Assembly (NCBI GenBank): GCA_963565915.1
Contig: OY751496.1
Coordinates: forward strand, 3,612,131-3,676,130
Direction: 5' to 3'
Origin: Entoloma clypeatum
Lineage: Eukaryota > Basidiomycota > Agaricomycetes > Agaricales > Entolomataceae
DNA: 64,000 nucleotides
In this document: piece by piece, positions 10,394-64,000 of the stretch
How positions within the stretch are numbered: the first letter of the stretch is position 1
Layout of the letters: every line of letters begins with the position of its first letter
Position numbers and translations under genes: made by a program
The notes under the pieces: generated by a model
Seen by the model: the letters and a program-made list of their open reading frames with translations, nothing else
Told to the model about the DNA's origin: nothing
Database searches by the model: none

Positions 10394-13300
10394 CTATGTA
10401 CGCAAGAAGAACAAGCAGCGCAAAGCTCCGTCAAGCTGATAAGTCCTCGCGCCAGGACAGGGGAGTCTGTTATAAACAAACGTGTTAGTATGCGCACCCA
10501 AAAATTCGGCCGCGCGATACAAGAGCACTCCAACCTTGTGGGGTTGGCCGTTAGCGGTGCTGGGGGGTGTCTGCGCCCTACCCCCCAAAGAAGCGCCTGT
10601 GCGGTTCTTATCCTTCGATTGTGTTTGCTTGCCAGAGGGGGCTGCACCCCTTTGTACCCAGCGCGCTACCACACGACTACCGCCAACGGTTGTGTTGGGC
10701 GTTGGACGATCCCTAAAGGCAAAGGCCCCTGGGTTATCCATAATGAATTTCCCGAAGTTGTCCCACGTGGGAGTGTTCCTCGAGAAGGTGGGCATGTCTG
10801 GGGGCCTGGTGGGGTGGTGCAGACATTTGTAGAGTACGTGGGCGAAGCCCCCGACGGATCCTGAACCACAGTCGCATTGTTCAACCTTGTCGCCAATATT
10901 GAACCTATGTCTATAGTGGCCAATTGGGGCATGAGGCCGCGAACCATTTGAGCCGTGAGGGATTGGGAGTGACCCACATCCTTAAGCCATGTGCCGCCCT
11001 TGAGGTGGGACGGTTTCATTCTTTTGGCCTGAGCGTGGTCTTGGCATCTGACGCACGTCCTCAGGAATTGGTAGTGATGGCCAACATACTTGGGGGACTG
11101 ATACAAGTTGTTCCAGTCACCTAGCATGTCATCTGTGAATTGTTTTGTATTGAAATCGAGGGATCTGGAGGCCAACTCGCCACACTCGATGTGTATTGAG
11201 GAGGCGAGGTCGTGCACTGCACGATGGGGTTCGAAGCCATGGTCCGAGCAATCGGGGACATGGTGAAAGAAGACCTTGGATTTCAGACCTGGTTCCTCAA
11301 ACCAAGGAACCAGGTTGCTGATGATAGCAAGTGCAGTTGCCTGCGAAGAGTGGAGGTCCGGGTCTGTGGCACGCCGAATGGCGTTAACAGAGTCGGTGAA
11401 GATGTGGATTTCTTCCAGTTGGGAGAGGCCCCCTAGCAGAGTGACCAGGTTGGAGAACCCATGTCCTATTGCTAAGGTTTCAGTGTCGTCAGAGACTGCG
11501 AGGCCACCAGCAGCCCAGTCTTTGTTGATGGAGTATCCCATGTGCCAGGTTTCCCAAGCTGCAACAGCTTGATGGCCCGACACAAGGGAGGGAACAGCCG
11601 CGTCGGTAACAATGACAGTGGATTTGTTAGAGCAGATGTTGGCATCAAACACCTTGTTAAGGGTGGCAAGGCGTAACTTCCTGGCTTCGGCATGCTCCTT
11701 AGCAGTTTTGCCATGGATAAGAGTGATGTCATGGATGATGCGATCAGGGAATCGGTTGAGGACGCGTTTTCCTGGCTCGTTGTAATTATTAAAGGGTGAT
11801 AGGGGGACAGTCACATTTGCATGGTATGCCCAGATATCGACGAGAGGGGATTTAAGATTGTACATAAATTCCGGGGAGTACCATGGTCGTTTTGAGGGAT
11901 CTTCCTCATCGCAGACCATGATGGTCATGTGCCATGGTGCAAGGGAGTGCATACGGACGCGGTTTCTGCAGGAGAGCTTCTTTAGGTGCAGATGCACCGG
12001 AGGCAAGCCGGCAAGAGATTCGACTGCCCCTGTGGGGGTGGTACAGAAGGCTCCCAGGATCCACAGGGCTGCGCGCCTCTGCACTCTGGAGATAGACTTG
12101 ATGACCCCCTTATTACGGGCGCCATCGAAGTTCCATAGATTGGCCCCATATAGAGCAATCGGTAGAATACACAATCGGTATAGGGTGCATTTGTGTTTGG
12201 GTGTAAGTCCTCGGACTGAGTTTCCCAGTGATAATAAGGCTCCCGTTGCGGAGAATGCCTTAGTGGCATACCATTTTGCATGCTCGGTGAAGAGCAGCTT
12301 ACGGTCGAAGAAGAATCCCAGGTACCTCCAGAAGGTCTTGGGGACAAGGGGGGAGTCGCCTGTGAAGGGCGCATATCCTAGGTCAACCGGGGGGTTATCG
12401 TCACCATTCTTCCTGGAGAAATGGAACACCTCCAATTTAGAGTGTTCGAGGACAAGCCCTAGGGCTGTAGTCAACTCAAACAGACATTTGTATGCCTTTT
12501 TTAGTTTGGCAAGGTTGTCTTTCCACATTTCAGACTGGACTATAATGGTCCCATCATCTACGTAGGAAATGAGGGTAGCCTGCGATTGTTCTGTGTGAAA
12601 CGCATACATCAGCGGGGCGAGATATATGGATGATAGCACGGGGGAGAGGGCAGAGCCCTGACCTACGCCAATGTCCACAGAGAAGAAGTCCAAGAGGTCG
12701 TCCTCCCAGGCGTATTGAGTCTGTCTCCCTATTAGGTAGTTGGAGAAGAAGTCCACGACAGTGTTGGGGAACCCCATCCTATCTAATATGAGCATGATAA
12801 CCGAGTGGTTTAGGGAGGGAAAGTATTGTGCCAAGTCAATGACAACAACACTGGTCTTGAGTTTCCTTGACCACCCTGCACAAATGAGGTGGGTGAGGAA
12901 TTGTCCGGCATCTTCAGTGGAGTTCTGGCGAACCCCTCCGAATTGTCCTGGGTGTAGCAGACTGTAGCGGGCGAGTTCCCATTGCATTTTGTTAGCGATA
13001 GCTTTCTCAAATAGTTTGCCCAGGGTGTTTAAAAGCACGATGGGGCGAAACACTTTGGGAACGTCATACACCGGCTTATTCGGTTTAGGAATAATGACGG
13101 TCATTGAGATTTTGAATATGTCGGGCCAGAACCCTGCCGAGAGGCAAGCGTTCAGAATCCAGACGAACAGCTTCAAGATATGCTCATGTGCGATCAGGCA
13201 CTTGAGGTGGGACCATGTAAGATGATCTGGGCCAGGGGAAGACCAGCTGGAACAGCCGGCCAGGGCCTGGAGGACCTCTTGCGATGAGAATGGACCCCAA

Positions 13301-14603
13301 GCCCTTTTGGGTTGAGGTTCAAGAGCATTGCGCAATCTGTCAGGGTCGACAGGGCGCGCTGAAAAGATTTATGAAACGCCTCACAAGTCTCGGAAGTCGT
13401 GGAGCAGGTCTTGCCTTCGAAAGTAATAGCCTCAGGAGAGGCATTCTTACGTGGGCCGACCCAGGAGGTAAGGTCCCAGGGACGCTTATTTTTGTTGGAT
13501 ACTTCGTCAATTTTCTTGTCAAAGAAGTTCCGTTTGGCGGTGCGAATGATTTTGTGCATGTCGCCCCAGTCTTGGTCTGTCTTATCCGAGTTGGAGTAGG
13601 TGCGCCACCCGGCCTTGCAGTCCTTATCCCACCAGCCCTTTGACCGGAACGAGTCCCGGGGAGAGCAAGAGAATTCGGTCCACTCGGCCAGGATGAGCTC
13701 CTGAACCTTCTGGGTAATACTAGTAATGTCCTCCCTGGAGGCCGTGGCCAGGATAGGGATGGAGGATATGGATTCCGTAAGTGCAGACAGGAAATGAGTT
13801 TCCTCTTCCGAGTCTGAGACTATACGGTAGTGTTCCTTCGTGTTAATGAGGGGGGATCTGAGGAGGGTGATGATCGAGCGGTGGTCCGACTCGTCTGGGC
13901 TCCCAAGCTTAATGATTGAGTCTTTGTCCGTGTTAGGGAGGAAGACCAGATCGATGATGGACGGGGCATTGTTATTCTTAGGGAAGTGGGTGAACCCAGT
14001 CCTATGATGAACAAGACCATGCGAGAATGCGAAGTCTGAGAGGAGAGACACATTATGGTTGTGGCGCACCACTTCGGGGTCCCATAACGGTGAGGGGCAA
14101 TTAAAATCGCCACCTATGTGCCATATAGGAGGAAGGGATGTTCCAAGAGTGGCAAGGACATGTATGGCTGTGCCCTGCGTGTCCGAGTAGGCATTAATCA
14201 AGTTAATCTGACCCTCGGGGACAGACATTGAAAGGAGGTTGACATCCCAGTGGCGGATAATGTCTGAGCGAAGTTTAGGTTTCATGGCGGAGCGCCGCCT
14301 GTGGACGTAAACAATGGCGCGGGGTCGCAGATCCTCATCCAGATTAGATGGGTCGAGGACAGGCTCCGAATGGTGGAGGCACATCCAGTCAGGGTGGTTC
14401 GGCAGACCCACAAGGGGCTCGCCGTCTTTACTCATCATGGAGGCGACATGTCTTATGGTAGCCCATGGGGGCTCTTGCACGAAGATGATGTTGAGGTTAT
14501 CTTTTTGTTGCTCTAACATTGTAGACAGGAGAACGCTCTTTTGGTAGATGTTCTGGGAACGAATATGCAAACCCTCATATTTATTCATAGTTGTACCTAA
14601 CAT
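10394..14603 (-). pseudogene. LINE ORF2: endonuclease, RT, RNase H
   Basis: The ATG at 14603 overlaps the ORF1 stop in ATGTTAG. The first part holds the endonuclease: FVQEPPW, IGGDFNCPSPLWD, IIDLVFLP and SDHRS. A frameshift near 13330 separates it from the reverse transcriptase, with FRPIVLLNTLGKLFEK, VVVIDLAQYFPSLNH, GVGQGSALSPVLSS and SYVDDGTIIV. RNase H follows, with VTDAAVP and IFTDSVNAI. A second frameshift near 10930 precedes a Cys-rich tail (CDCGSGSV, LYKCLHHP). The two frameshifts make this copy inactive in itself. Confidence 0.88.
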
Positions 14604-15594: not shown

Positions 15595-18500
15595 TTATCG
15601 TGGACGTGACGGGTTCTGCCGATGGAAATCATGGATCAAATCTTGAGTGTTCTGAACATTAGCTCGCAGTTCCCATGTGTTCTCTTCTGGGCCATATCCT
15701 TCCCACTGGACGAGGTACTGGATCTTTCCGTGGAACTTTCGAGAGTCCAGGATCGTAGACACATGGTACTCTTCTCATCCTTCGACGATGATCGGATCAG
15801 GGGCTGGTTTCTTTTTCTGGATGGCGTACTTCGGAGTTTCATATGGTGACAACAGGGTCTCGTTGAACACAGGGTGAATCATCTTCCAAGTCTTCGGAAG
15901 ATCAAGAAGGTACACGCTAGCTCCTTTCTTCTCTAGGACTTTGAATGGTCCATGTCGGAGTGCATCAAGTTTCTTTGAGGGTCGATTGGTCCTGATGTTA
16001 GTCCCTTCCAGCCACACCTTGTCTCCGATGCGGTAGTCCCGAGACGGACTTCGCCGTGTGTCAACTGTCTTCTTCATCTGATCCTGTGCTTGTTTCAGCG
16101 CAGCATTGGCTTCTTCTCGTGCCTGTTTGAGTTTTTTCAAGAAGTCGTTGGCAGCTGGATTGGTATCTTCTAACACAAGTTCTCCCTTCCACAGATGTAA
16201 ACCGTAGTTGAGGTAGAATGGGGTGTGCTTCGTTGCCTGGTGTTCTTTGTCATTGTACTGGAACTCTGCGATTGCGATCCATTCTGCCCAATCATCCTGT
16301 AGATGGTTGACAAAGTTTCGTAAGAATGCTTCTGTTTCCTGATGTGATCGCTCGGCCTGTCCATCAGTCTGTGGGTGGTATGCGGTGGATAGGTTCCTCT
16401 TGATCCCTAACATGCGGCAGAGTATCTCCATGAACTTCGCGGCGAACTGCAGTCCCCTATCGCTGATGATCTTCTTGGGGATCCCATGAAGCTTCCATAT
16501 CTGATCCCGATAGATCTTGGCTAATCCTTCAGCTGATAGTTCCACGGTTGTCGGAATGAGGTGAAGCATCTTTGAATGTCTATCCGTGATGACCAGAATT
16601 GCATTTTTTCCATCAGATTCTGGTATCGGTCCCACGACGTCGATCCCTATGTCTTCCCATGGGTGACTTGGTGCTGCATGGGGATGTAGCGGAGCATGTC
16701 GCTTTTGTCGGTTAATCTTGTTGCGTTGACAAGTGTCGCAACCCTTCACGTACTTCTTCACATCATGCAGTATGGTGGGCCACCAGTAGGTGCGAGTGAG
16801 GAGTTCATGTGTCCGGTACTGTCCTGGATGTCCAGCCACTGGTGCATCGTGTGACTCGAACATCAATTCTTGTCATAATTGTGGGTCTGGCAGGACATAG
16901 ACTCGTTCTCCTGCATAGGTGATCCCATTCTCCTGCTGATACCAATGAGGATTCTTTTTTAGGCCCTGCGCTACTTCTGTCTCCATGCGGTTCGAACCCT
17001 TGATGCGTGCGATCCACGGATTTTCAATGGTCATGACATTTCCAATTTTGATGGAATCAGATGTTTCACCCCCTTCAAAGAATTGTTCCTCCGTGAACAT
17101 CTCCATTTGTACCACATCTTCTGATTCCAACCGTTTCAAGAATAGTCCCTCCTTGAGCATTTGGTCACTGTCCTGTGGTTCGAGTTCCGCTTCATACCAG
17201 GGTAAGCGTGACAGGATGTCCGCTTTCGCATTGGTCTTGCCGGGCACATGCCGTAATTCGAAGTCATAGTCTTGTAACTTCATTTTCCAGCGTCGCTGTC
17301 ATTGATTTAGGTCTTGAGGACGACGGAAATATTCCAGGTTCTTGTGATCGGTCAAGATCTCGAAACGTTCCCTGGCTTCAAGCAGATAGTGTCTCCAATC
17401 TTTCAATGCTTCCACGACTGCCAGAAGTTCTTTGTCGTATATCTCATAATTCTGTTCGGCCGCGGACATGGTCCGCGACAAGAACGCGATGGGGTGCCAT
17501 TTGTCGTCTTGCTTCTGAGAGAGTACTGCTCCAATTGCATAGCCCGATGCATCGGTTTCCACCCTGAACTGTCCCTCCGATTTCAGTAATGCCAAGACTG
17601 GTGCCGATGTAATTGCCCGTATGAGACCTTCAAAAGCTTGCTGCTCTGTTGGTCCCCAAGTAAATGCCGTACCGCCTGTGAGCGCGGTGAGAGGTTTCGC
17701 GATGTTTGAGTACCCTTCAATAAAACGTTGATAGAAGTTAGCAAATCCAAGGAACTTCTGAACTTCCTTTTTTGATGTGGGTGCTCGCCAGTTTCGAATT
17801 GTATCCACCTTCTCAGTTTCCATCTCCACACGTCCCTCACCAACCACATATCCCAATATAGGACATTTCGTTACTTCCCATAAACACTTCTTCTCCTTTA
17901 GGAACAGATCATTGTCCGATAGGATCTGTAGGATTTCTTCAGTGTTTCGCGCGAGTTCTTCCTTGGTTTTACCGATAACCACGATGTCGTCCATGTAGAT
18001 CACGCAGATACGTCGGCGGATCTGGTCCCGGAATAGACTAGCCATCATTCGAGAGAACGTTCCCGGGGAGTTGCAAAGACCAAAAAACATGACCAATGGT
18101 TCGAACAATCCTCGACTGGTGAGGAAGGCAGCTTTCCATTCGTCGCCCTCCTTAATCCGGACGTTGTTATAGCCCCACATGATGTCCATTTTATTGAAGT
18201 AGACCGCATCTTTCAGTACGTCCAAGAGATCAGATATTCGTGGGAGTGGGAACTTGTCTTTGACCGTGAATTTGTTGACCATGCAGTAATCTTGTACCAA
18301 TCGTTTGGAGCCATCCTTCTTGTTGATGAAGAAGCAAGGGGAGGCATAAGGGGATTTGGACGGACGGATCTTTCCTGTTGCTAGACCCTCGTCAATGAAT
18401 GCGTCCAATTCCTCTTGTTCCTTTTGCGTCATAGGATATGTATTTCCTCCTAGTTCCTTTGGTGCGTCCAGTGTAAGTTCAATACCATGGTCCCATTCCC

Positions 18501-19100
18501 TCTCCTTTGGGATCTTATCGAAGTTTTCTTTTTTGAAAAGATGAGCAAATCGTTCAACATATGAGGGTCGTTTGGTTGTGGGAGGTGGTGTGGGAGTGAC
18601 AGCTTCCAAGATAGGGTCTCCAGGCTTCCATTTCTGATCCGACTTTTTGGGTGCATCTTTGTCGCGCACCTCAACCATGCGAACTCGGTGTTTGCAACTA
18701 TTAAGGTTAATCCTGAAATCCGAGTGTTTGGTTCGACATGTTGTTGGGCACCGGTTAAATGTTACCGCGCCGGTTGTCCAATTGATTGTGGGGTTGTGGT
18801 GCACCAACCAGTCATGTCCCAAGAGCATGTCCATTCTCCCAATGTCCAGTACCATTGCTTCCATGGTTTCCTGATGTGCTCCCAAATCCAGTTTGACTTC
18901 GGCAAGTTGGCTCGCTTTCTGTTGTCGATTTGGTGATCCATCCGCATTTAGAATTGCTATGGGTGGTATTCCTCACGTGGGGAGGTTCTGTTCGCGTACT
19001 ATTCTGGGATGGATGCATGTGCGCTCACATCCGCTGTCAACCTCAGGTCGGATAACCTTTGGTCCTCGTCATGTTTTGAGCTGAGCTAACAGCCTGATTT
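15595..19100 (-). pseudogene. Gypsy pol: protease, RT, RNase H, integrase, chromodomain
   Basis: Protease has the active-site VDSGCERTC near 19040. Reverse transcriptase has YMDDIVVIGKT, and RNase H has ETDASGYAIGAVLSQ. Integrase has an HHCC finger (CDTCQRNK) and the catalytic residues in DIGIDVVGP, ISDRG and GQAERSHQE. After a TGA at 15777-15775 the frame continues as a chromodomain (YLVQWEGYGPEENTWE) to a stop at 15595. Four in-frame TGA codons occur near 18977, 17299, 16873 and 15775, each where arginine CGA would fit. The protein is otherwise well preserved, so inactivation looks recent and point-mutational. Confidence 0.9.
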
Positions 19101-52236: not shown

Positions 52237-52253
52237 GGGGTTAGGGGTTAGGG
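52237..52253 (+). repeat. Innermost telomeric repeat tract
   Basis: GGGGTTAGGGGTTAGGG directly after the HMG-box gene. It marks the boundary between chromosomal sequence and the telomeric element array. Confidence 0.9.
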
Positions 52254-52962
52254 AAGAAGTAGTTCCTTCGCAAAGAAGGACTATGGAAGGGGCGACTGTG
52301 GGGCCTGTGCCGAGTGGACAATAGGACTTGGGGAAAGTCCAGGATCCTATTTCGGCCTTTAAAGGCCTCATCAGGTCCGAATACGGCAATCGTTGAGTCA
52401 TTCCAGAGAACAATAACGCTATTGTTCTCTGGGACAGCTGACTCTGCCTATTGTTCACTTTTGGGCCTAGTCTGACAGCGGCGTGACAGGGAAGAACGCC
52501 ACAACCCGGAACCGAACAGGGTCCCGAAAGGACCCTGCAAGGACAAGGCTATGGGGAATCCCCATCAGCGAACCGACAGAAAGGCGCACCACAGTGAACC
52601 GAAATAGCGAGTCGTTCCCAAATCAAAGTCTCAAGAACTTTGAAGACGAAAGGCTATCCCGAAGGATATACAACAAGTAAACTAACCAGAACCCAAGAAC
52701 CGTAAGAACAGTTACAGGCAACACCCTAAGTACGCTATTTACGAAACGTACGAAGAAACGCCAGACACAATGTGTTGACATCAGAGTAGGAGTAAGCAAG
52801 GGCGAACAAGCAGATCATCTCATCGCTAGACATGTCGAATGTTCGATCCGACACCAGCTGAGCGAGATAACCCACAATCCCAACCCAACCCTAAGGTTGG
52901 GTGCATGTCCATCGTTGAGTCTAGCAAAGGCCGGACTCACCACCGATCCTAACGTTAACCGG
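52254..52962 (-). mobile_element. U1: terminal repeat unit, subfamily 1
   Basis: Unit without RT. The proximal (3') end starts AAGAAGTAGTTCC on the plus strand; the distal end is AACGTTAACCGG. Its ribozyme motif is at 52308-52388. It is a diverged form (subfamily 1) of the units that follow, sharing all hairpins but differing throughout in point changes. It probably is a solo copy of the element's terminal repeat. Confidence 0.8.
52308..52388 (-). ncRNA. Type I hammerhead ribozyme, copy 1
   Basis: Minus strand, 5' to 3': TGCCG, internal loop TATTC, GGAC, then the core CTGATGA. Stem II is GGCCT-TTAA-AGGCC, followed by GAA. Stem III is ATAGGA..TCCTAT, then U at the cleavage position, GTCC, loop ACT and CGGCA. 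Stem I is GGAC/GTCC plus TGCCG/CGGCA around an internal loop and is the open stem, which makes it type I. All invariant core bases are present. Predicted cleavage is between 52320 and 52319 (AUU^GUCC). Activity is inferred, not shown. Confidence 0.88.
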
Positions 52963-52975
52963 TTAGGGTTAGGGG
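52963..52975 (+). repeat. Telomeric tract between U1 and U2
   Basis: TTAGGGTTAGGGG. Confidence 0.85.
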
Positions 52976-53578
52976 AGGAGCACTACGACGAGCGCAGCGA
53001 GGAGGAGTGCGACTGAGGGGCCTGTGTGCCGATGTGGACAATAGGACTTGGGATAAGTCCGGGATCCTATTTCGGCCTTTATAGGCCTCATCAGGTCCGA
53101 AAACGGCAATCGGTTGAGTCATTCAGAGAACAATAGAACAATAGAACTATTGTTCTCTGGGCAGCTGACTCCGCCTATTGTCCACTTCGTCACACGCCTG
53201 ACAGGTCGTGAGAGGAAAACGCCACAATAGCGCTCGCCAAGACAGGACCCGAGTAGGACCCTGCAAAGGTAAGGCTATGGGGAATCCCCATCACGGACCA
53301 ACGGTCCGGGTGAGATCCGAGTGAACCGAGATAACGGATCGCTCCCACATCAAAGTCCGAAGATCTTTGAAGGCGAAGACCGTTATCCCGAAGGACACAC
53401 AACAAGAAAACTAACCAATACCTAGTAACATGTAAGAACAGTTACGGGAAACCACCTAAGTACATTATTTACGAAATGTACGTAAAAACGCCAGACACAA
53501 TGGTCGACATCAGAGCTGGAGTAAGCAAGGGCGAACAAGCAAACCATCTCATCGCTAGACATGTCGATTGTTCGAACG
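52976..53578 (-). mobile_element. U2: terminal repeat unit, subfamily 2, 5'-truncated
   Basis: Starts AGGAGCACTACG on the plus strand, the fixed 3' junction of subfamily 2. The distal end breaks at TTCGAAC, inside the unit, and is capped by TAGGGGTTAGGGG. This copy has an 8-bp duplication (AATAGAAC) in the long hairpin at 53130. Confidence 0.85.
53027..53108 (-). ncRNA. Hammerhead ribozyme, copy 2
   Basis: Same layout as copy 1, with stem II loop ATAA and stem I internal loop TTTTC/ACAT. Predicted cleavage between 53040 and 53039. The complementary 12-nt segment GTGGACAATAGG lies upstream in the RNA at 53185-53174. Confidence 0.9.
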
Positions 53579-53591
53579 TAGGGGTTAGGGG
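53579..53591 (+). repeat. Telomeric tract capping U2
   Basis: TAGGGGTTAGGGG. Confidence 0.9.
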
Positions 53592-54300
53592 AGGAGCACT
53601 ACGACGAGCGCAGCGAGGAGGAGTGCGACTGAGGGGCCTGTGTGCCGATGTGGACAATAGGACTTGGGATAAGTCCGGGATCCTATTTCGGCCTTTATAG
53701 GCCTCATCAGGTCCGAAAACGGCAATCGGTTGAGTCATTCAGAGAACAATAGAACTATTGTTCTCTGGGCAGCTGACTCCGCCTATTGTCCACTTCGTCA
53801 CACGCCTGACAGGTCGTGAGAGGAAAACGCCACAATAGCGCTCGCCAAGACAGGACCCGAGTAGGACCCTGCAAAGGTAAGGCTATGGGGAATCCCCATC
53901 ACGGACCAGCGGTCCGGGTGAGATCCGAGTGAACCGAGATAACGGATCGCTCCCACATCAAAGTCCGAAGATCTTTGAAGGCGAAGACCGTTATCCCGAA
54001 GGACACACAACAAGAAAACTAACCAATACCCAGTAACATGTAAGAACAGTTACGGGAAACCACCTAAGTACATTATTTACGAAATGTACGTAAAAACGCC
54101 AGACACAATGGTCGACATCAGAGCTGGAGTAAGCAAGGGCGAACAAGCAAGCCATCTCATCGCTAGACATGTCGATTGTTCGAACCGACACCAGCTGAGC
54201 GAGATGACCCACAATCCCAACCCAACCCTAGGGTTGGGCGCACGTCCGTCGTTGAGTCTAGCAAAGGCCGGACTCACCCCCAGCCCCTAACGTTAACCGG
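53592..54300 (-). mobile_element. U3: complete terminal repeat unit, subfamily 2
   Basis: Runs from the AGGAGCACTACG junction to AACGTTAACCGG, the same outer end as U1 and U7, so this is probably the full terminal repeat of about 709 bp without internal region. Confidence 0.85.
53643..53724 (-). ncRNA. Hammerhead ribozyme, copy 3
   Basis: Core and stems identical to copy 2. Predicted cleavage between 53656 and 53655. Confidence 0.9.
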
Positions 54301-54306
54301 TTAGGG
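54301..54306 (+). repeat. Minimal telomeric junction U3/U4
   Basis: A single TTAGGG separates the two units. Confidence 0.6.
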
Positions 54307-54360
54307 AAGAAGTAGTTCCTTCACAAAGAAGGACTATGGAAGGGGCGACTGTGGGGCCTG

Positions 54361-54441
54361 TGCCGAGTGGACAATAGGACTTGGGGAAAGTCCAGGATCC
54401 TATTTCGGCCTTTAAAGGCCTCATCAGGTCCGAATACGGCA
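54361..54441 (-). ncRNA. Hammerhead ribozyme, copy 4
   Basis: Identical to copy 1 (subfamily 1). Predicted cleavage between 54373 and 54372. It lies downstream of the reverse transcriptase stop in the same RNA. Confidence 0.9.
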
Positions 54442-54675
54442 ATCGTTGAGTCATTCCAGAGAACAATAACGCTATTGTTCTCTGGGACAGCTGACTCTGC
54501 CTATTGTTCACTTTTGGGCCTAGTCTGACAGCGGCGTGACAGGGAAGTACGCCACAACCCGGAACCGAACAGGGTCCCGAAGGGACCCTGCAAGGACAAG
54601 GCTATGGGGAATCCCCATCAGCAAACCGACAGAAAGGCGCACCACAGTGAACCGAAATAGCGAGTCCAAAGATAC

Positions 54676-56281
54676 TCAATCGTGACGAGACAACCAAGCG
54701 TCTCCCAGACTCTGACGAGTATTTACAAGGTGCGCCAATGCAGTTCCCTCGGTTTCAGATAATTCTGAATCTGAGGAGTCCTCGAGATCTTCAGACAGCC
54801 GAAGAACTGGAGATTGACGCGAAGCTTCCTTGTCCATTCCTGTGATCACCACCTTTTTCCAAAGGCTAGTTAAATCAAATAAGTTCAGAGTGCGCTTACG
54901 CGACACTAAGAGCTTTCGTTTATCGAATCCTAACACCCTGATGTCTGGCATGGGGACAACGCCCCCAGAGGTGTGCACCTCAACCGTAAGATTCTCGTCG
55001 TCCATAACAGACGCCAAGTCTCCAGGGTCAGCAGAGAATCGCGGGTGTGAGAGGGAGAATTTCCCTTGCTCAGCGTGATCTAAATAATCGCGCCAGAAAC
55101 CGATGATGGTGTCACCAAGTTCTTTTGCGGAAAAATAATTCCATGCCTCGTTGAATTTAGACTTAAGTACTAACACCTCTGCAGGTGCCTTTCTCACTTC
55201 GTTGAGACGTTTAGCCCAACTGTCAGCACTGTATTTCTTGAGCCAAGCTCTAACGAGTTCTTCGGGGTAGCCACGCTTCACGTACAACAGAACCAACTGC
55301 TGCAGTGCCCTAAGGTAAGTCGATTGTAGACTACATAGTGTGGCGAGCCTCGACATCTCTCCAATAAAAGTCCCTCGTTTCACGTCGAGGGGATGGTGTG
55401 AGATGTATGGAATTCTTTCCAAATGAGAACGTGCTTTGCGATATGGCATGTGTTGTAGGGCGCCTCTTTCGTCGCGATACAGCATCATGTCTAAGAAGGG
55501 TTGATGAGACCCGGACACATTCCATTCAATAACACAATCTTCGATAACGACTTTTTGCATGGTCTGGAGCGCTTCAGCTTCAGATTCAGCATATACTAAA
55601 GCTAGAACGTCATCGATATACCGACCGTAGAAAGCTACGGACGGATCCTCCATGATTCCACAGTGTTTCTCAAAATACCAGCCGGAAAAGGTTGGCAAGA
55701 TCGGGGGAATCAGCTACGCCCATAGCAAGGCCTCTACGCTGTTTGTAGAATTTATCTTGGAATTGTGTTACCAAATTACGGTTGCCGACAAGGAGACACT
55801 GCAGGAATAGTTCATGCAGTTGTAAAACGTCTCGGTCAATGAGTGCGAACTCAGCGTCTAGATCAAAGCCTGACCATTCACAGTATAGAGAATCAACGAT
55901 GTCGATGCATCGTTGAATTGGAATGGAGGGGTAGTACGCTACAACGTCACCAGTGACGAGGTAAAACCTCTTGCCGGGAATCATCCGTAATTTACTCAAT
56001 TTTATCGCCAAGTCTTTGGTTCCATGGATAATGGATGGCGCCGCTTGTACAAGCGGTTTGAGACATTTAGAAATGTACTTTGCAGCTGGGTTCTGGATGG
56101 CACTGTGGCATGGGATGATAGGTCTCATTTTTACAGGTTCCTTATGGATCTTGGGGATCCCGTAGAACTGAGGCACAGTATGTTTGGTGAACCCGCCCTT
56201 TACTTCTTTAGGTGTAACCTTAGATCGCAAAAAACGTGCTAACTGCTTGCCAAGGGGATGAACATTAAAAGCAAGCTTTGC
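54676..56281 (-). pseudogene. Penelope-like reverse transcriptase, copy A
   Basis: 5'-truncated but holds most of the RT. The open frame begins at the break with KLAFNVHPLGKQLARFLRSK, then PQFYGIPKIHKEPVKMRPII (motif 2), FYLVTGDVVAYYPSIPIQ (motif A, first Asp), GLAMGVADSPDLANLF (motif B), and after a one-base frameshift near 55693 FYGRYIDDVLALVY (motif C). The Penelope thumb follows (QPFLDMMLYRDERG; YRKARSHLERIPYISHHPLD; KRGYPEELVRAWLKKY). The C-terminal about 150 residues have no GIY-YIG endonuclease and end LSRHD at 54676. This is the endonuclease-deficient Athena/Coprina type. The frameshift makes this copy inactive. Confidence 0.88.
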
Positions 56282-56308
56282 TAGGGGTTAGGGGTTAGGG
56301 GTTAGGGG
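56282..56308 (+). repeat. Telomeric tract capping U4
   Basis: TAGGGG followed by three TTAGGGG. Confidence 0.92.
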
Positions 56309-56359
56309 AGGAGCACTACGACGAGCGCAGCGAGGAGGAGTGCGACTGAGGGGCCTGTG

Positions 56360-56441
56360 TGCCGATGTGGACAATAGGACTTGGGATAAGTCCGGGATCC
56401 TATTTCGGCCTTTATAGGCCTCATCAGGTCCGAAAACGGCA
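56360..56441 (-). ncRNA. Hammerhead ribozyme, copy 5
   Basis: Subfamily 2 form. Predicted cleavage between 56373 and 56372. Confidence 0.9.
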
Positions 56442-57017
56442 ATCGGTTGAGTCATTCAGAGAACAATAGAACTATTGTTCTCTGGGCAGCTGACTCCGCC
56501 TATTGTCCACTTCGTCACACGCCTGACAGGTCGTGAGAGGAAAACGCCACAATAGCGCTCGCCAAGACAGGACCCGAGTAGGACCCTGCAAAGGTAAGGC
56601 TATGGGGAATCCCCATCACGGACCAACGGTCCGGGTGAGATCCGAGTGAACCGAGATAACGGATCGCTCCCACATCAAAGTCCGAAGATCTTTGAAGGCG
56701 AAGACCGTTATCCCGAAGGACACACAACAAGAAAACTAACCAATACCCAGTAACATGTAAGAACAGTTACGGGAAACCACCTAAGTACATTATTTACGAA
56801 ATGTACATAAAAACGCCAGACACAATGGTCGACATCAGAGCTGGAGTAAGCAAGGGCGAACAAGCAAGCCATCTCATCGCTAGACATGTCGATTGTTCGA
56901 ACCGACACCAGCTGAGCGAGATGACCCACATTCCCAACCCAACCCTAGGGTTGGGCGCACGTCCGTCGTTGAGTCTAGCAGAGGCCGGACTCACCCCCAG
57001 CCCCCAACGTTAACCGG

Positions 57018-57083
57018 TTAGGGTTAGGTTAGGGGTTAGGGGTTAGGAGTAAGGGGTTACTGTTAGGGGGTAAGGTTAGGTTA
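57018..57083 (+). repeat. Degenerate telomeric tract inside U5
   Basis: Repeats of TTAGGG, TTAGG, TTAGGGG, TTAGGAG and TTAGGGGG with interruptions. The same degenerate sequence is found at the same place in U8 and U9, so it is copied as part of the element. A second short piece (GGTTAGGGTTAGG) lies at 57147-57158. Confidence 0.85.
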
Positions 57084-57499
57084 AGCTGTTGGCTATTGTG
57101 TGTCAATAGGCAGGCATATATCTTTTCAATATAAGCTGAGCTTACGGTTAGGGTTAGGCTCCAAGGCTAATTCCTATGGTTTTCCATTGCGCACGAAGGC
57201 GCTATACCGTAAGTCGTTGGTCAGCTACACCGACATGGTGGGTTTCCACCACCGTTAAAGAACCGGAATGGTCAGAGAATGAAGGGGGACTCACTTTCGT
57301 AGGTAAGTCTGTGGTATCAAGGAGTTTATTCTCACTATTATGGTACTCTAGCGTTGTTCTCCCATATGCTCCTTCCGCAGCGTTCGTACTTAAACTACTG
57401 ACTACAAAAGGGATACACACGCCATAACGCAGGTAGGTCTAGCCGGTACATCCAACTGTTCTCCCGTATCCCCCTCGACGCTGTAAAGCGCCAAGACAC

Positions 57500-59121
57500 T
57501 CAGTCGTGACGAGACAACCAAGCGTCTCCAAGACTCTGACGAGTATTAACAAGGTGCGCCAGTGCGGTTCCTTCGGTTTCAGATAGTTCTGAATCTGAGG
57601 AGTCCTCGAGTTCGTCTGCAGACAGCCGAATAACCGGGGACTGGCGCGAAGCTTCCTTGTCCATTCCTGTGATCACCACCTTTTTCCAAAGAGTAGTTAA
57701 GTCAAATAAATTCAGAGTACGCTTTCGCGATACCAAGAATTTTCGTTTATCAAATCCTAACACCCGGATATCCGGCATGGGGGTTACCCCCCCTGCGGTG
57801 TGAACCATGACCGTCAGGTCCTCGTCGTCCATAACAGACGCCAAGTCCCCGGGGTCAGCGGAAAATCGTGGGTGCGAGAGGGAGAATTTCCCTTGCTCGG
57901 CGTTACTAAGATAGTCGCGCCAGAATCCGATGATGGTGTCACCAAGTTCTTTTGCGGAAAAGTAATTCCATGCCTCATTAAAATGTGACTTAAGTACCAA
58001 CACCTCTGCAGGTGCCTTTCTCACTTCGTTGAGACGTTTAGCCCAACTGTCAGTACTGTACTTCTTAAGCCATGCTTTAACAAGTTCTTCGGGGTACCCA
58101 CGCTTCACATACAACAATACCAACTGTTGCAGTGCCCTGAGGTAAGTCGATTGTAGACTACTCAGCGTGGCGAGCCTCGACATTTCACCAATAAAAGTCC
58201 CTCTCTTTACATCGAGCGGGTGGTGGGAAATGTATGGAATTCGTTCCAAGTGTGAACGTGCTTTGCGATAAGGCATGTGTTGCAAAGCGCCTCTTTCGTC
58301 GCGATACAACATCATGTCCAAGAAGGGTTGATGAGACCCAGACACATTCCACTCAATAACACAATCTTCGATGGCGACTTTTTGCACAATACGAAGCGCT
58401 TCAGCTTCTGAATTGGCATATACTAAAGCCAGTACATCATCGATGTACCGTCCATAGAAAGCTACGGACGGATCCTCCATGATTCCACAGTGTTTCTCAA
58501 AATACCAGCCGAAAATACCAGCCGGAAAAGGTTGGCAAGATCGGGGGAATCAGCTACGCCCATAGCAAGGCCTCTACGCTGTTTGTAGAATTTATCTTGG
58601 AATTGTGTTACCAAATTACGGTTGCCGACAAGGAGACACTGCAGGAATAGTTCATGCAGTTGTAAAACGTCTCGGTCAATGAGTGCGAACTCAGCGTCTA
58701 GATCAAAGCCTGACCATTCACAGTATAGAGAATCAACGATGTCGATGCATCGTTGAATTGGAATGGAGGGGTAGTACGCTACAACGTCACCAGTGACGAG
58801 GTAAAACCTCTTGCCGGGAATCATCCGTAATTTACTCAATTTTATCGCCAAGTCTTTGGTTCCATGGATAATGGATGGCGCCGCTTGTACAAGCGGTTTG
58901 AGACATTTAGAAATGTACTTTGCAGCTGGGTTCTGGATGGCACTGTGGCATGGGATGATAGGTCTCATTTTTACAGGTTCCTTATGGATCTTGGGGATCC
59001 CGTAGAACTGAGGCACAGTATGTTTGGTGAACCCGCCCTTTACTTCTTTAGGTGTAACCTTAGATCGCAAAAAACGTGCTAACTGCTTGCCAAGGGGATG
59101 AACATTAAAAGCAAGCTTTGC
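57500..59121 (-). pseudogene. Penelope-like reverse transcriptase, copy B (chimera)
   Basis: The C-terminal part (58480-57500) has MEDPSVAFYGRYIDDVLALV, the thumb and the end LSRHD, with differences from copy A such as ANSEAEALRIVQKVAIE. The N-terminal part (59121-58514) is identical to copy A. At the seam CGGCTGGTATTTT is present twice (58498-58523), a 13-bp duplication that leaves the two parts out of frame. Non-functional as it stands. Confidence 0.85.
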
Positions 59122-59148
59122 TAGGGGTTAGGGGTTAGGGGTTAGGGG
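59122..59148 (+). repeat. Telomeric tract capping U5
   Basis: Same 27 bp as the U4 cap, at the same truncation point, which argues that it was copied together with the distal half rather than added anew. Confidence 0.9.
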
Positions 59149-59655
59149 AGGAGCACTACGACGAGCGCAGCGAGGAGGAGTGCGACTGAGGGGCCTGTGT
59201 GCCGATGTGGACAATAGGACTTGGGATAAGTCCGGGATCCTATTTCGGCCTTTATAGGCCTCATCAGGTCCGAAAACGGCAATCGGTTGAGTCATTCAGA
59301 GAACAATAGAACTATTGTTCTCTGGGCAGCTGACTCCGCCTATTGTCCACTTCGTCACACGCCTGACAGGTCGTGAGAGGAAAACGCCACAATAGCGCTC
59401 GCCAAGACAGGACCCGAGTAGGACCCTGCAAAGGTAAGGCTATGGGGAATCCCCATCACGGACCAACGGTCCGGGTGAGATCCGAGTGAACCGAGATAAC
59501 GGATCGCTCCCACATCAAAGTCCGAAGATCTTTGAAGGCGAAGACCGTTATCCCGAAGGACACACAACAAGAAAACTAACCAATACCCAGTAACATGTAA
59601 GAACAGTTACGGGAAACCACCTAAGTACATTATTTACGAAATGTACATAAAAACG
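59149..59655 (-). mobile_element. U6: terminal repeat unit, 5'-truncated
   Basis: Starts at the AGGAGCACTACG junction and breaks at ATAAAAACG, about 200 bp short of the full terminal repeat. Capped by TAGGGTTGGGGT. Confidence 0.85.
59200..59281 (-). ncRNA. Hammerhead ribozyme, copy 6
   Basis: Subfamily 2 form. Predicted cleavage between 59213 and 59212. Confidence 0.9.
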
Positions 59656-59667
59656 TAGGGTTGGGGT
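59656..59667 (+). repeat. Imperfect telomeric tract capping U6
   Basis: TAGGGTTGGGGT: one repeat lacks its A. Confidence 0.75.
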
Positions 59668-60377
59668 AGGAGCACTACGACGAGCGCAGCGAGGAGGAGT
59701 GCGACTGAGGGCCTGTGTGTGCCGATGTGGACAATAGGACTTGGGATAAGTCCGGGATCCTATTTCGGCCTTTATAGGCCTCATCAGGTCCGAAAACGGC
59801 AATCGGTTGAGTCATTCAGAGAACAATAGAACTATTGTTCTCTGGGCAGCTGACTCCGCCTATTGTCCACTTCGTCACACGCCTGACAGGTCGTGAGAGG
59901 AAAACGCCACAATAGCGCTCGCCAAGACAGGACCCGAGTAGGACCCTGCAAAGGTAAGGCTATGGGGAATCCCCATCACGGACCAACGGTCCGGGTGAGA
60001 TCCGAGTGAACCGAGATAACGGATCGCTCCCACATCAAAGTCCGAAGATCTTTGAAGGCGAAGACCGTTATCCCGAAGGACACACAACAAGAAAACTAAC
60101 CAATACCCAGTAACATGTAAGAACAGTTACGGGAAACCACCTAAGTACATTATTTACGAAATGTACGTAAAAACGCCAGACACAATGGTCGACATCAGAG
60201 CTGGAGTAAGCAAGGGCGAACAAGCAAGTCATCTCATCGCTAGACATGTCGATTGTTCGAACCGACACCAGCTGAGCGAGATGACCCACATTCCCAACCC
60301 AACCCTAGGGTTGGGCGCACGTCCGTCGTTGAGTCTAGCAAAGGCCGGACTCACCCCCAGTCCCCAACGTTAACCGG
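59668..60377 (-). mobile_element. U7: complete terminal repeat unit
   Basis: Extends to AACGTTAACCGG. A small GTGT change near 59715 moves its junction to 65 nt from the cleavage site. Confidence 0.85.
59720..59801 (-). ncRNA. Hammerhead ribozyme, copy 7
   Basis: Subfamily 2 form. Predicted cleavage between 59733 and 59732. Confidence 0.9.
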
Positions 60378-60390
60378 TTAGGGTTAGGGG
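60378..60390 (+). repeat. Telomeric tract between U7 and U8
   Basis: TTAGGGTTAGGGG. Confidence 0.85.
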
Positions 60391-60441
60391 AGGAGCACTA
60401 CGACGAGCGCAGCGAGGAGGAGTGCGACTGAGGGGCCTGTG

Positions 60442-60523
60442 TGCCGATGTGGACAATAGGACTTGGGATAAGTCCGGGATCCTATTTCGGCCTTTATAGG
60501 CCTCATCAGGTCCGAAAACGGCA
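60442..60523 (-). ncRNA. Hammerhead ribozyme, copy 8
   Basis: Subfamily 2 form. Predicted cleavage between 60455 and 60454. Confidence 0.9.
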
Positions 60524-61099
60524 ATCGGTTGAGTCATTCAGAGAACAATAGAACTATTGTTCTCTGGGCAGCTGACTCCGCCTATTGTCCACTTAGTCAC
60601 ACGCCTGACAGGTCGTGAGAGGAAAACGCCACAATAGCGCTCGCCAAGACAGGACCCGAGTAGGACCCTGCAAAGGTAAGGCTATGGGGAATCCCCATCA
60701 CGGACCAACGGTCCGGGTGAGATCCGAGTGAACCGAGATAACGGATCGCTCCCACATCAAAGTCCGAAGATCTTTGAAGGCGAAGACCGTTATCCCGAAG
60801 GACACACAACAAGAAAACTAACCAATACCCAGTAACATGTAAGAACAGTTACGGGAAACCACCTAAGTACATTATTTACGAAATGTACGTAAAAACGCCA
60901 GACACAATGGTCGACATCAGAGCTGGAGTAAGCAAGGGCGAACAAGCAAGCCATCTCATCGCTAGACATGTCGATTGTTCGAACCGACACCAGCTGAGCG
61001 AGATGACCCACATTCCCAACCCAACCCTAGGGTTGGGCGCACGTCCGTCGTTGAGTCTAGCAAAGGCCGGACTCACCCCCAGCCCCCAACGTTAACCGG

Positions 61100-61165
61100 T
61101 TAGGGTTAGGTTAGGGGTTAGGGGTTAGGAGTAAGGGGTTACTGTTAGGGGGTAAGGTTAGGTTA
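61100..61165 (+). repeat. Degenerate telomeric tract inside U8
   Basis: Same order of variant repeats as in U5. Confidence 0.85.
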
Positions 61166-61581
61166 AGCTGTTGGCTATTGTGTGTCAATAGGCAGGCATA
61201 TATCTTTTCAATATAAGCTGAGCTTACGGTTAGGGTTAGGCTCCAAGGCTAATTCCTATGGTTTTCCATTGCGCACGAAGGCGCTATACCGTAAGTCGTT
61301 GGTCAGCTACACCGACAAGGTGGGTTTCCACCACCGTTAAAGAACCGGAATGGTCAGAGAATGAAGGGGGACTCACTTTCGTAGGTAAGTCTGTGGTAGC
61401 AAGGAGTTTATTCTCACTATTATGGTACTCTAGCGTTGTTCTCCCATATGTTCCTTCCGCAGCGTTCGTACTTAAACTACTGACTACAAAAGGGATACAC
61501 ACGCCATAACGCAGGTAGGTCTAGCCGGTACATCCAACTGTTCTCCCATATCCCCCTCGACGCTGTAAAGCGCCAAGACAC

Positions 61582-62593
61582 TCAGTCGTGACGAGACAAC
61601 CAAGCGTCTCCAAGACTCTGACGAGTATTAACAAGGTGCGCCAGTGCGGTTCCTTCGGTTTCAGATAGTTCTGAATCTGAGGAGTCCTCGAGTTCGTCTG
61701 CAGACAGCCGAACAACCGGAGACTGGCGCGAAGCTTCCTTGTCCATTCCTGTGATCACCACCTTTTTCCAAAGAGTAGTTAAGTCAAATAAATTCAGAGT
61801 ACGCTTTCGCGATACCAAGAATTTTCGTTTATCAAATCCTAACACCCGGATATCCGGCATGGGGGTTACCCCCCCTGCGGTGTGAACCATGACCGTCAGG
61901 TCCTCGTCGTCCATAACAGACGCCAAGTCTCCGGGGTCAGCGGAAAATCGTGGGTGCGAGAGGGAGAATTTCCCTTGCTCGGCGTTACTAAGATAGTCGC
62001 GCCAGAATCCGATGATGGTGTCACCAAGTTCTTTTGCGGAAAAGTAATTCCATGCCTCATTAAAATGTGACTTAAGTACCAACACCTCTGCAGGTGCCTT
62101 TCTCACTTCGTTGAGACGTTTAGCCCAACTGTCAGTACTGTACTTCTTAAGCCATGCTTTAACAAGTTCTTCGGGGTACCCACGCTTCACATACAACAAT
62201 ACCAACTGTTGCAGTGCCCTGAGGTAAGTCGATTGTAGACTACTCAGCGTGGCGAGCCTCGACATTTCACCGATAAAAGTCCCTCTCTTTACATCGAGCG
62301 GGTGGTGGGAAATGTATGGAATTCGTTCCAAGTGTGAACGTGCTTTGCGATAAGGCATGTGTTGCAAAGCGCCTCTTTCGTCGCGATACAGCATCATGTC
62401 CAAGAAGGGTTGATGAGACCCAGACACATTCCACTCAATAACACAATCTTCGATGGCGACTTTTTGCACAATACGAAGCGCTTCAGCTTCTGAATTGGCA
62501 TATACTAAAGCCAGTACATCATCGATGTACCGTCCGTAGAAAGCTACGGACGGATCCTCCATAATTCCACAATGTTTCTCAAAATACCAGCCG
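61582..62593 (-). pseudogene. Penelope-like reverse transcriptase, copy C
   Basis: Only the part from just before motif C (YGRYIDDVLALV) through the thumb to the end LSRHD. The frame is uninterrupted over about 326 codons. Motifs 1-3 and B are missing through 5' truncation. Near-identical to copy B over the shared part. Confidence 0.87.
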
Positions 62594-62606
62594 TAGGGGT
62601 TAGGGG
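62594..62606 (+). repeat. Telomeric tract capping U8
   Basis: TAGGGGTTAGGGG. Confidence 0.9.
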
Positions 62607-62657
62607 AGGAGCACTACGACGAGCGCAGCGAGGAGGAGTGCGACTGAGGGGCCTGTG

Positions 62658-62739
62658 TGCCGATGTGGACAATAGGACTTGGGATAAGTCCGGGATCCTA
62701 TTTCGGCCTTTATAGGCCTCATCAGGTCCGAAAACGGCA
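62658..62739 (-). ncRNA. Hammerhead ribozyme, copy 9
   Basis: Subfamily 2 form. Predicted cleavage between 62671 and 62670. Confidence 0.9.
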
Positions 62740-63315
62740 ATCGGTTGAGTCATTCAGAGAACAATAGAACTATTGTTCTCTGGGCAGCTGACTCCGCCTA
62801 TTGTCCACTTCGTCACACGCCTGACAGGTCGTGAGAGGAAAACGCCACAATAGCGCTCGCCAAGACAGGACCCGAGTAGGACCCTGCAAAGGTAAGGCTA
62901 TGGGGAATCCCCATCACGGACCAACGGTCCGGGTGAGATCCGAGTGAACCGAGATAACGGATCGCTCCCACATCAAAGTCCGAAGATCTTTGAAGGCGAA
63001 GACCGTTATCCCGAAGGACACACAACAAGAAAACTAACCAATACCCAGTAACATGTAAGAACAGTTACGGGAAACCACCTAAGTACATTATTTACGAAAT
63101 GTACGTAAAAACGCCAGACACAATGGTCGACATCAGAGCTGGAGTAAGCAAGGGCGAACAAGCAAGCCATCTCATCGCTAGACATGTCGATTGTTCGAAC
63201 CGACACCAGCTGAGCGAGATGACCCACATTCCCAACCCAACCCTAGGGTTGGGCGCACGTCCGTCGTTGAGTCTAGCAAAGGCCGGACTCACCCCCAGCC
63301 CCCAACGTTAACCGG

Positions 63316-63381
63316 TTAGGGTTAGGTTAGGGGTTAGGGGTTAGGAGTAAGGGGTTACTGTTAGGGGGTAAGGTTAGGTTA
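63316..63381 (+). repeat. Degenerate telomeric tract inside U9
   Basis: Third copy of the tract seen in U5 and U8. Confidence 0.85.
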
Positions 63382-63797
63382 AGCTGTTGGCTATTGTGTG
63401 TCAATAGGCAGGCATATATCTTTTCAATATAAGCTGAGCTTACGGTTAGGGTTAGGCTCCAAGGCTAATTCCTATGGTTTTCCATTGCGCACGAAGGCGC
63501 TATACCGTAAGTCGTTGGTCAGCTACACCGACAAGGTGGGTTTCCACCACCGTTAAAGAACCGGAATGGTCAGAGAATGAAGGGGGACTCACTTTCGTAG
63601 GTAAGTCTGTGGTAGCAAGGAGTTTATTCTCACTATTATGGTACTCTAGCGTTGTTCTCCCATATGTTCCTTCCGCAGCGTTCGTACTTAAACTACTGAC
63701 TACAAAAGGGATACACACGCCATAACGCAGGTAGGTCTAGCCGGTACATCCAACTGTTCTCCCATATCCCCCTCGACGCTGTAAAGCGCCAAGACAC

Positions 63798-63904
63798 TCA
63801 GTCGTGACGAGACAACCAAGCGTCTCCAAGACTCTGACGAGTATTAACAAGGTGCGCCAGTGCGGTTCCTTCGGTTTCAGATAGTTCTGAATCTGAGGAG
63901 TCCT
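63798..63904 (-). pseudogene. Penelope-like reverse transcriptase, last 35 codons
   Basis: Codes DSSDSELSETEGTALAHLVN and the common end LSRHD, with nothing upstream. Confidence 0.85.
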
Positions 63905-64000
63905 GGGGTTAGGGGTTAGGGTTAGGGGTTAGGGGTTAGGGGTTAGGGGTTAGGGGTTAGGGGTTAGGGGTTAGGGGTTAGGGGTTAGGGGTTAGGGGTT
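63905..64000 (+). repeat. Telomeric repeat array (TTAGGGG)n
   Basis: Thirteen or so repeats, all TTAGGGG except one TTAGGG near 63918, continuing to the window edge. The G-rich strand points outward, as at a right-hand chromosome end. It is far longer than any internal tract in the array (27 bp at most), which supports a true telomere or a recent one. Confidence 0.9.

Follow-up and report, generated by a model that had tools for sequence, protein, structure and literature searches.

A terminal array of probable telomere-attached Penelope-like elements in the mushroom Entoloma clypeatum

The terminal array

The right end (C15R) of a 3.68-Mb contig of Entoloma clypeatum (OY751496.1) carries a tandem array of retroelements that we read as endonuclease-deficient Penelope-like elements (PLEs) attached to telomeric ends. 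We analysed a window of 64,000 nucleotides (contig positions 3,612,131 to 3,676,130), whose last base is also the contig's last base (3676130), in an assembly of 60 Mb in 20 contigs. For one host gene of the window, the best hits come from Tricholomella, Hypsizygus, Termitomyces, Sphagnurus and Lyophyllum (at most 65% identity over 74% of the query), which points to an agaric close to these genera. Nine head-to-tail units at 52254–63904 have their sense on the minus strand and their 3′ ends proximal, and are followed by a 96-bp TTAGGGG tract (63905–64000) that reaches the contig end. In the whole window, the telomere pattern (at most one mismatch) matches 27 times against 0.01 matches expected by chance. 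Nine hammerhead ribozyme cores, with none in the reverse orientation, confirm the nine units, and the array anatomy proposed by an earlier sequence-only reading was borne out.

Each unit opens proximally with a 3′ tail specific to its family. We distinguished four families, of which A and B make up the units of the window and C and D occur at other ends; a D-like reverse transcriptase (RT) piece is also present in units 4 and 5. Three units stop at the 5′ end of the pseudo-long terminal repeat (pLTR), and the remaining six are truncated at 53578, 56281, 59121, 59655, 62593 and 63904 and capped there by telomeric repeats. Every RT piece of the window is 5′-truncated (Table 1).

Segments 55672–56815 and 58512–59655 agree over 1,144 bp with zero differences. 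Because the truncations at 56281 and 59121 both lie inside this perfect duplication, they represent a single event that was copied; the differing capped truncations described earlier thus stand as six ends, but not as six separate events, and nine independent insertions were rejected on account of the same duplication. Units 4 and 5 switch to D-like sequence near one point, at which unit 8 is truncated. Duplication and common breakpoint therefore indicate that some of the growth occurred by copying of existing ends.

Table 1. Features of the terminal array in the window (nucleotide positions; RT, reverse transcriptase; pLTR, pseudo-long terminal repeat)
Feature	Position	Strand	Details
Proximal telomeric tract	52237..52253	+	TTAGGGG type, before unit 1
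Unit 1	52254..52960	-	Family B, pLTR only, complete to 5′ end
Unit 2	52976..53578	-	Family A pLTR, 5′-truncated at unit position 595, cap TAGGGGTTAGGGG
Unit 3	53592..54298	-	Family A pLTR, complete to 5′ end
Unit 4	54307..56281	-	Family B 3′ part and RT body, family-D-like from ~55690, frame broken there; 5′-truncated
Telomeric tract	56282..56308	+	27 bp, same sequence as tract 59122–59148
Unit 5	56309..59121	-	Family A pLTR, internal telomere-like tract (57016–57080), spacer and RT body; 5′-truncated, frame broken at ~58511
Unit 6	59149..59655	-	Family A pLTR, 5′-truncated at position 507
Unit 7	59668..60375	-	Family A pLTR, complete to 5′ end
Unit 8	60391..62593	-	Family A pLTR, internal telomere-like tract, spacer and partial RT; 5′-truncated
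Unit 9 (outermost)	62607..63904	-	Family A pLTR, spacer and last 35 RT codons; 5′-truncated
Terminal telomeric tract	63905..64000	+	TTAGGGG, to contig end
Unit 5 RT	57503..58511	-	C-terminal part, telomerase-like (family A/C)
Unit 8 RT	61585..62593	-	C-terminal part
Hammerhead ribozyme, unit 5	56361..56444	-	Type I; predicted cut between 56373 and 56372 (unit positions 64 and 65)
Hammerhead ribozymes, other eight units	52309–52391, 53028–53111, 53644–53727, 54362–54444, 59201–59284, 59721–59804, 60443–60526, 62659–62742	-	Type I
Duplicated segment	55672..56815	.	1,144 bp, 100% identical to 58512–59655 (RT piece, tract and part of next unit); recombinational duplication

The complete element, its reverse transcriptase and its ribozyme

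Intact frames were found at other chromosome ends. An intact relative on contig C8 is arranged, in sense order, as distal pLTR, 13 nt of telomeric sequence, short leader, open reading frame (ORF), spacer, internal tract and proximal pLTR, and spans about 4.8 kb between its tail and the 5′ end of the body. Its single long ORF has 1,191 open codons, 1,177 counted from a TTG, with the first ATG 19 codons further on. The architecture pLTR-ORF-pLTR, the tandem and partially tandem copies and the 5′ truncation are hallmarks of PLEs. All seven junctions that reach the body 5′ end (four of family C, three of family B) do so at one fixed point, and a degenerate internal telomere-like tract is common to all four families.

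The RT is under strong purifying selection and its predicted fold is telomerase-like in the best nine rows of structural matches, as in the telomerase-related RTs of PLEs. Proteins of Armillaria ostoyae and Lentinula edodes (52–53% identity) are the named homologues among 120 listed. Pfam detected no GIY-YIG domain in the ORF, nor in an alignment of 44 sequences that includes 43 of the 120 listed homologues. The earlier observation of an RT with Penelope motifs but no GIY-YIG domain agrees with the fold and with these sequence profiles. The RT thumb is followed by a conserved domain, the C-terminal 182 residues of the ORF (stretch L017, 3817–4362), the core of which was modelled with good confidence; no structural match to this domain was found, and a highly divergent nuclease domain is conceivable. 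Telomerase itself is probably present in this fungus, because the genome holds a match to the telomerase RNA-binding domain.

All units of the window contain the CUGAUGA and GAAA cores, a predicted cut site and the three helices (I, II and III), arranged as in type I, which places a hammerhead in the pLTR as in other PLEs. Rfam model HH9 matches seven of the nine ribozymes at 25–26 bits, short of its gathering score of 52, and the minimum-energy fold of the isolated domain is the hammerhead in families A, B and D. Between B and D the ribozyme is identical at 78 of 78 positions, whereas the rest of the pLTR is 33% alike (gaps counted); across A to D, 6 of 84 columns vary, none of them in the named helices or the core. 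This conservation argues for a function of the predicted ribozyme, although sequence conversion from one family to another could also have kept it uniform. Downstream of the hammerhead follow a tail of 64–67 nt and then CCCC(TAA); a hammerhead with a reverse-complement telomeric repeat after it is also found at the 3′ ends of Terminons. A tail segment, CAGGCCCC-N-CAG, shared by families A, B and D (window 56309–56444 and equivalents), can pair with the ribozyme core to give a competing fold and is a possible switch. One unit on contig C1 (L010, C1:8127–8403) joins a family-B tail to a family-C body, with the breakpoint, placed by eye, within about 19 common nt that bracket the predicted cut.

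Chromosome ends, junctions and truncation points

A genome-wide pattern search (at most one mismatch) found 122 unit 3′ tails, 70 of type A/C and 52 of type B/D. Of these, 109 are close to the end of a large contig or adjoin a telomere tract at a scaffold gap, and every one has the orientation of telomere attachment; within 40 kb of the ends of the 12 large contigs, the orientation is as predicted for 85 of 85 tails. In all, 15 of 24 large-contig ends have tails within 40 kb, so that units are present at further chromosome ends, as expected. We examined 15 telomere tracts (11 at contig ends, four at gaps) from among the matches listed, 256 being counted genome-wide, so more may exist; all 15 have units within 1 kb. 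Of the tail-less ends, C6L and C9L lack a telomeric repeat in their first 1 kb, and C2R, C6R, C8R, C9R, C11R, C13R and C14R in their last 171–180 bases. These nine ends, which show no telomere in the sequence checked, are therefore no evidence against the pattern.

Internal arrays of inverse orientation, named as a refutation at the outset, resolved in part into misjoined ends. C17 carries 18 tails, ten on the plus strand all on one side of a 200-N gap and eight on the minus strand all on the other, and thus represents two telomere-capped ends face to face, each with correctly oriented tails; C2 has two further telomere tracts adjoining 200-N gaps, with six tails. Opposite-orientation arrays were rejected for C17 and part of C2; the tails that stay internal or unplaced are weighed below. 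At such misjoins, array or telomere sequence meets a 200-N gap with another piece behind it (C2 near 1994617 and 5578140, C17 near 29829). A simple satellite was likewise rejected, the units being structured elements with intact ORFs elsewhere. The 13-kb contig C16 starts with a telomere of the six-base TTAGGG type, not TTAGGGG, and possibly stems from another organism.

Junctions were collected from 10-kb stretches at 13 ends (14 kb at C15R), leaving out the eight tracts that lie at the 5′ end of a pLTR. The 50 interstitial tracts are 9–77 bp long (median 18), and their proximal joints read GGGG/AGGAGC in 27 cases, GGG/AAGAAG in 12 and another start site or family in 11; the 3′ junctions are thus fixed, as had been stated, by family. 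A few units start internally at GG/A, at position 28 (C1L, C10L, C14L) or 31 (C1 and C10), which is what priming by a telomeric GG end through short pairing would produce. New tracts begin with AGGGG, TAGGGG or GGGG in 42 of 60 cases, as expected of capping by telomerase, but microhomology confounds this count.

In the 13 ends, 21 pLTR truncation points are capped by telomeric sequence, and most then bear a new 3′ tail. Thirteen unit ends, read by eye from the rows, fall within the internal telomere-like tract, those of the outermost units at C12L, C15L and C1R among them. Because of these ends, the simplest reading of the pLTR-only units is that each element was halted or shortened at its own telomere-like tract, a place at which telomerase or recombination can step in.

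Truncations cluster a second time, though less strongly, at the predicted hammerhead cut. The test set comprised 20 automatically mapped truncations and one whose position was set manually (tail position 59 at C2 left), some of which may share descent as copies at different ends. Four of the 21 fall within −6 to +1 of the cut (P = 1.2e-4, for a window picked after looking); the P-value is 7e-4 for 6 nt on either side and 0.02–0.055 for a scan for a cluster anywhere. A superseded, hand-compiled list with mixed family coordinates had given 3 of 22 truncations at most 5 nt from the cut (P = 0.006), 4 of 22 in the post hoc window (P = 3.4e-4), no enrichment over the whole ribozyme zone (5 of 22, P = 0.15) and P = 0.065 for the cluster scan. 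A pool of 44 truncations, partly picked for shortness, gave smaller P-values and was not used. Eleven further truncations and others seen by eye (e.g. C2:1880620), at loci chosen for looking short, stayed outside the test. The predicted cut coincides exactly with the end of two short units, at C2 left and C13, and another five end no more than about 6 nt away. An RT that runs off a cleaved tail and one that stalls on structured RNA explain the cluster about equally well. At C12 left and at C2:5578109, two broken ends in the ribozyme region continue into nearly the same non-telomeric sequence (ctcctccgcttccac...gcggtaccg).

Growth of the arrays and related systems

We consider the arrays, with a probability of about 0.88, to consist of endonuclease-deficient PLEs of an agaric mushroom that use telomeric 3′ ends as primers, receive caps from telomerase and are reshuffled by recombination. 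Telomeric location with the 3′ end proximal and telomere-capped, truncated 5′ ends are what characterises endonuclease-deficient PLEs. Transcription, with the distal pLTR as its probable start, would run toward the centromere and yield an RNA that ends in the hammerhead, the short tail and a C-rich stretch that complements the G strand of the telomere. An exposed 3′ end (...TTAGGGG) could pair with this C-rich end and be extended by the telomerase-like RT, so that the sense strand would run inward with the element's 3′ end proximal. Copying might halt anywhere up to the RNA 5′ end, after which telomerase would cap the new end with TTAGGGG, ready for the next round, and recombination between ends would duplicate and shuffle units. 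The sequence-only proposal of end growth by alternating addition of elements and telomere repeats is supported by orientation, distribution and caps, but needs to be widened, as recombination also contributes (the 1,144-bp duplication). Since two units end at the predicted cut and five within about 6 nt, the hammerhead might also set what is copied onto ends: self-cleavage would free a 64-nt tail with a telomere-pairing end, itself reverse-transcribed as a minimal patch, whereas full copying would need uncut RNA that the competing fold may protect. We regard this last idea as doubtful, though possible.

Several observations weigh against the preferred reading. With the 3′ tail attached, a competing fold is more stable than the hammerhead by 1.3–3.6 kcal/mol, which in the model speaks against constant ribozyme activity. 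As the C-terminal domain has no structural match, the loss of the endonuclease rests on sequence profiles; Pfam RVT_1 matches the RT part weakly (E = 0.0058), and the whole ORF matched nothing in Pfam at E = 1. Thirteen of the 122 tails are internal or unplaced (eight on C2, two on C6, three on C11). A 3,531-nt frame is identical on C8 left and C10 right; together with the perfect duplication, this shows recombination or very recent spread, and unit counts overstate insertions.

The same two identities, and a 13-nt tract shared at the body 5′ end by four family-C copies, are what an ordinary subtelomeric repeat would produce if it spread mainly by recombination (break-induced replication or end-to-end gene conversion) after an ancient retrotransposition. 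We consider this very unlikely in view of the 21 capped truncation points, the interleaving of families at one end, the purifying selection on the RT and the conservation of the ribozyme. An unlikely origin of the short pLTR-only units is an independent non-autonomous family, retrozyme-like and possibly with circular RNA, that is mobilised by the RT: a complete hammerhead and a length of about 710 nt recall retrozymes, and the head-to-tail pLTR units with telomeric joints and the mosaic C1 unit also favour it, yet this mosaic was seen once only, and simple truncation suffices where 13 units end inside the internal tract. That the arrays are an assembly artefact is extremely improbable; scaffolds do contain wrong joins (C2, C17) and unfinished ends, but the wrong joins seen sit at N gaps outside the arrays, and the same architecture recurs with differing unit orders at many telomere tracts.

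Telomere-attached PLEs of this kind are already known: Gladyshev and Arkhipova reportedly described in 2007 that basidiomycetes, and other kingdoms too, have PLEs at telomeres that lack the endonuclease, and the present copy set is a well-preserved additional case with details worth testing. It resembles the Coprina-type PLEs, which are said to have basidiomycete hosts, no endonuclease found, telomeric locations and 5′-truncated ends capped by the species' repeats. Hammerheads in PLEs, fungal ones included, were reportedly described in 2014. MoTeR1 of the rice blast fungus is a non-LTR element with a restriction-like endonuclease and not a PLE. Like our element, it is a retroelement tied to fungal telomeres (PMC10088271). 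PLEs of the agaric Agaricus bisporus are described as closely linked to telomeres (PMC7473861), the same link as here. Athena and the Terminons of bdelloid rotifers are likewise telomeric, head-to-tail and 5′-truncated by telomeric repeats; beside their hammerhead, near the 3′ end, is a complement of the telomeric repeat, for which pairing with the overhang is considered possible (PMC6431247). In that account, however, the repeat follows the hammerhead immediately, whereas here a tail of 64–67 nt separates the telomeric sequence from the predicted cut, and Terminons reach 40 kb with many ORFs, unlike the mushroom element of about 4.8 kb and one ORF. The label terminon, used at first, thus fits the hammerhead followed by a reverse-complement repeat, but properly belongs to giant multi-ORF rotifer elements. 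Drosophila HeT-A, TAHRE and TART also form one-way head-to-tail arrays at ends, with a promoter in the 3′ part that can serve the neighbouring element (PMC5537684); unlike these non-LTR elements, at telomeres without telomerase repeats, the fungus retains TTAGGGG and a telomerase match. The in vivo activity and role of PLE hammerheads are called a mystery (PMC7761336), and for a Penelope element of Anolis reverse transcription is reported to start inside the RNA, with no need for hammerhead cleavage in vitro (PMC11167929).

Beyond the sequence-only reading, our analysis added the strongly conserved hammerhead near each 3′ end, the internal tract with its pile-up of truncations, the truncations near the predicted cut (4 of 21) and the 1,144-bp duplication. 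With 122 tails, four families, intact ORFs and distinct truncation points, the genome holds a dense natural record of additions beside telomeric repeats, which makes the role of the hammerhead in PLEs testable and is relevant to the idea that PLEs and telomerase are kin. The genome also suggests that telomerase, retroelements and recombination can together build the ends of fungal chromosomes.

Elsewhere in the window, translations read by eye revealed other retroelement ORFs: a non-LTR RT with an endonuclease, and a gypsy-like integrase/RT pair (10666–14603 and 15775–18885).
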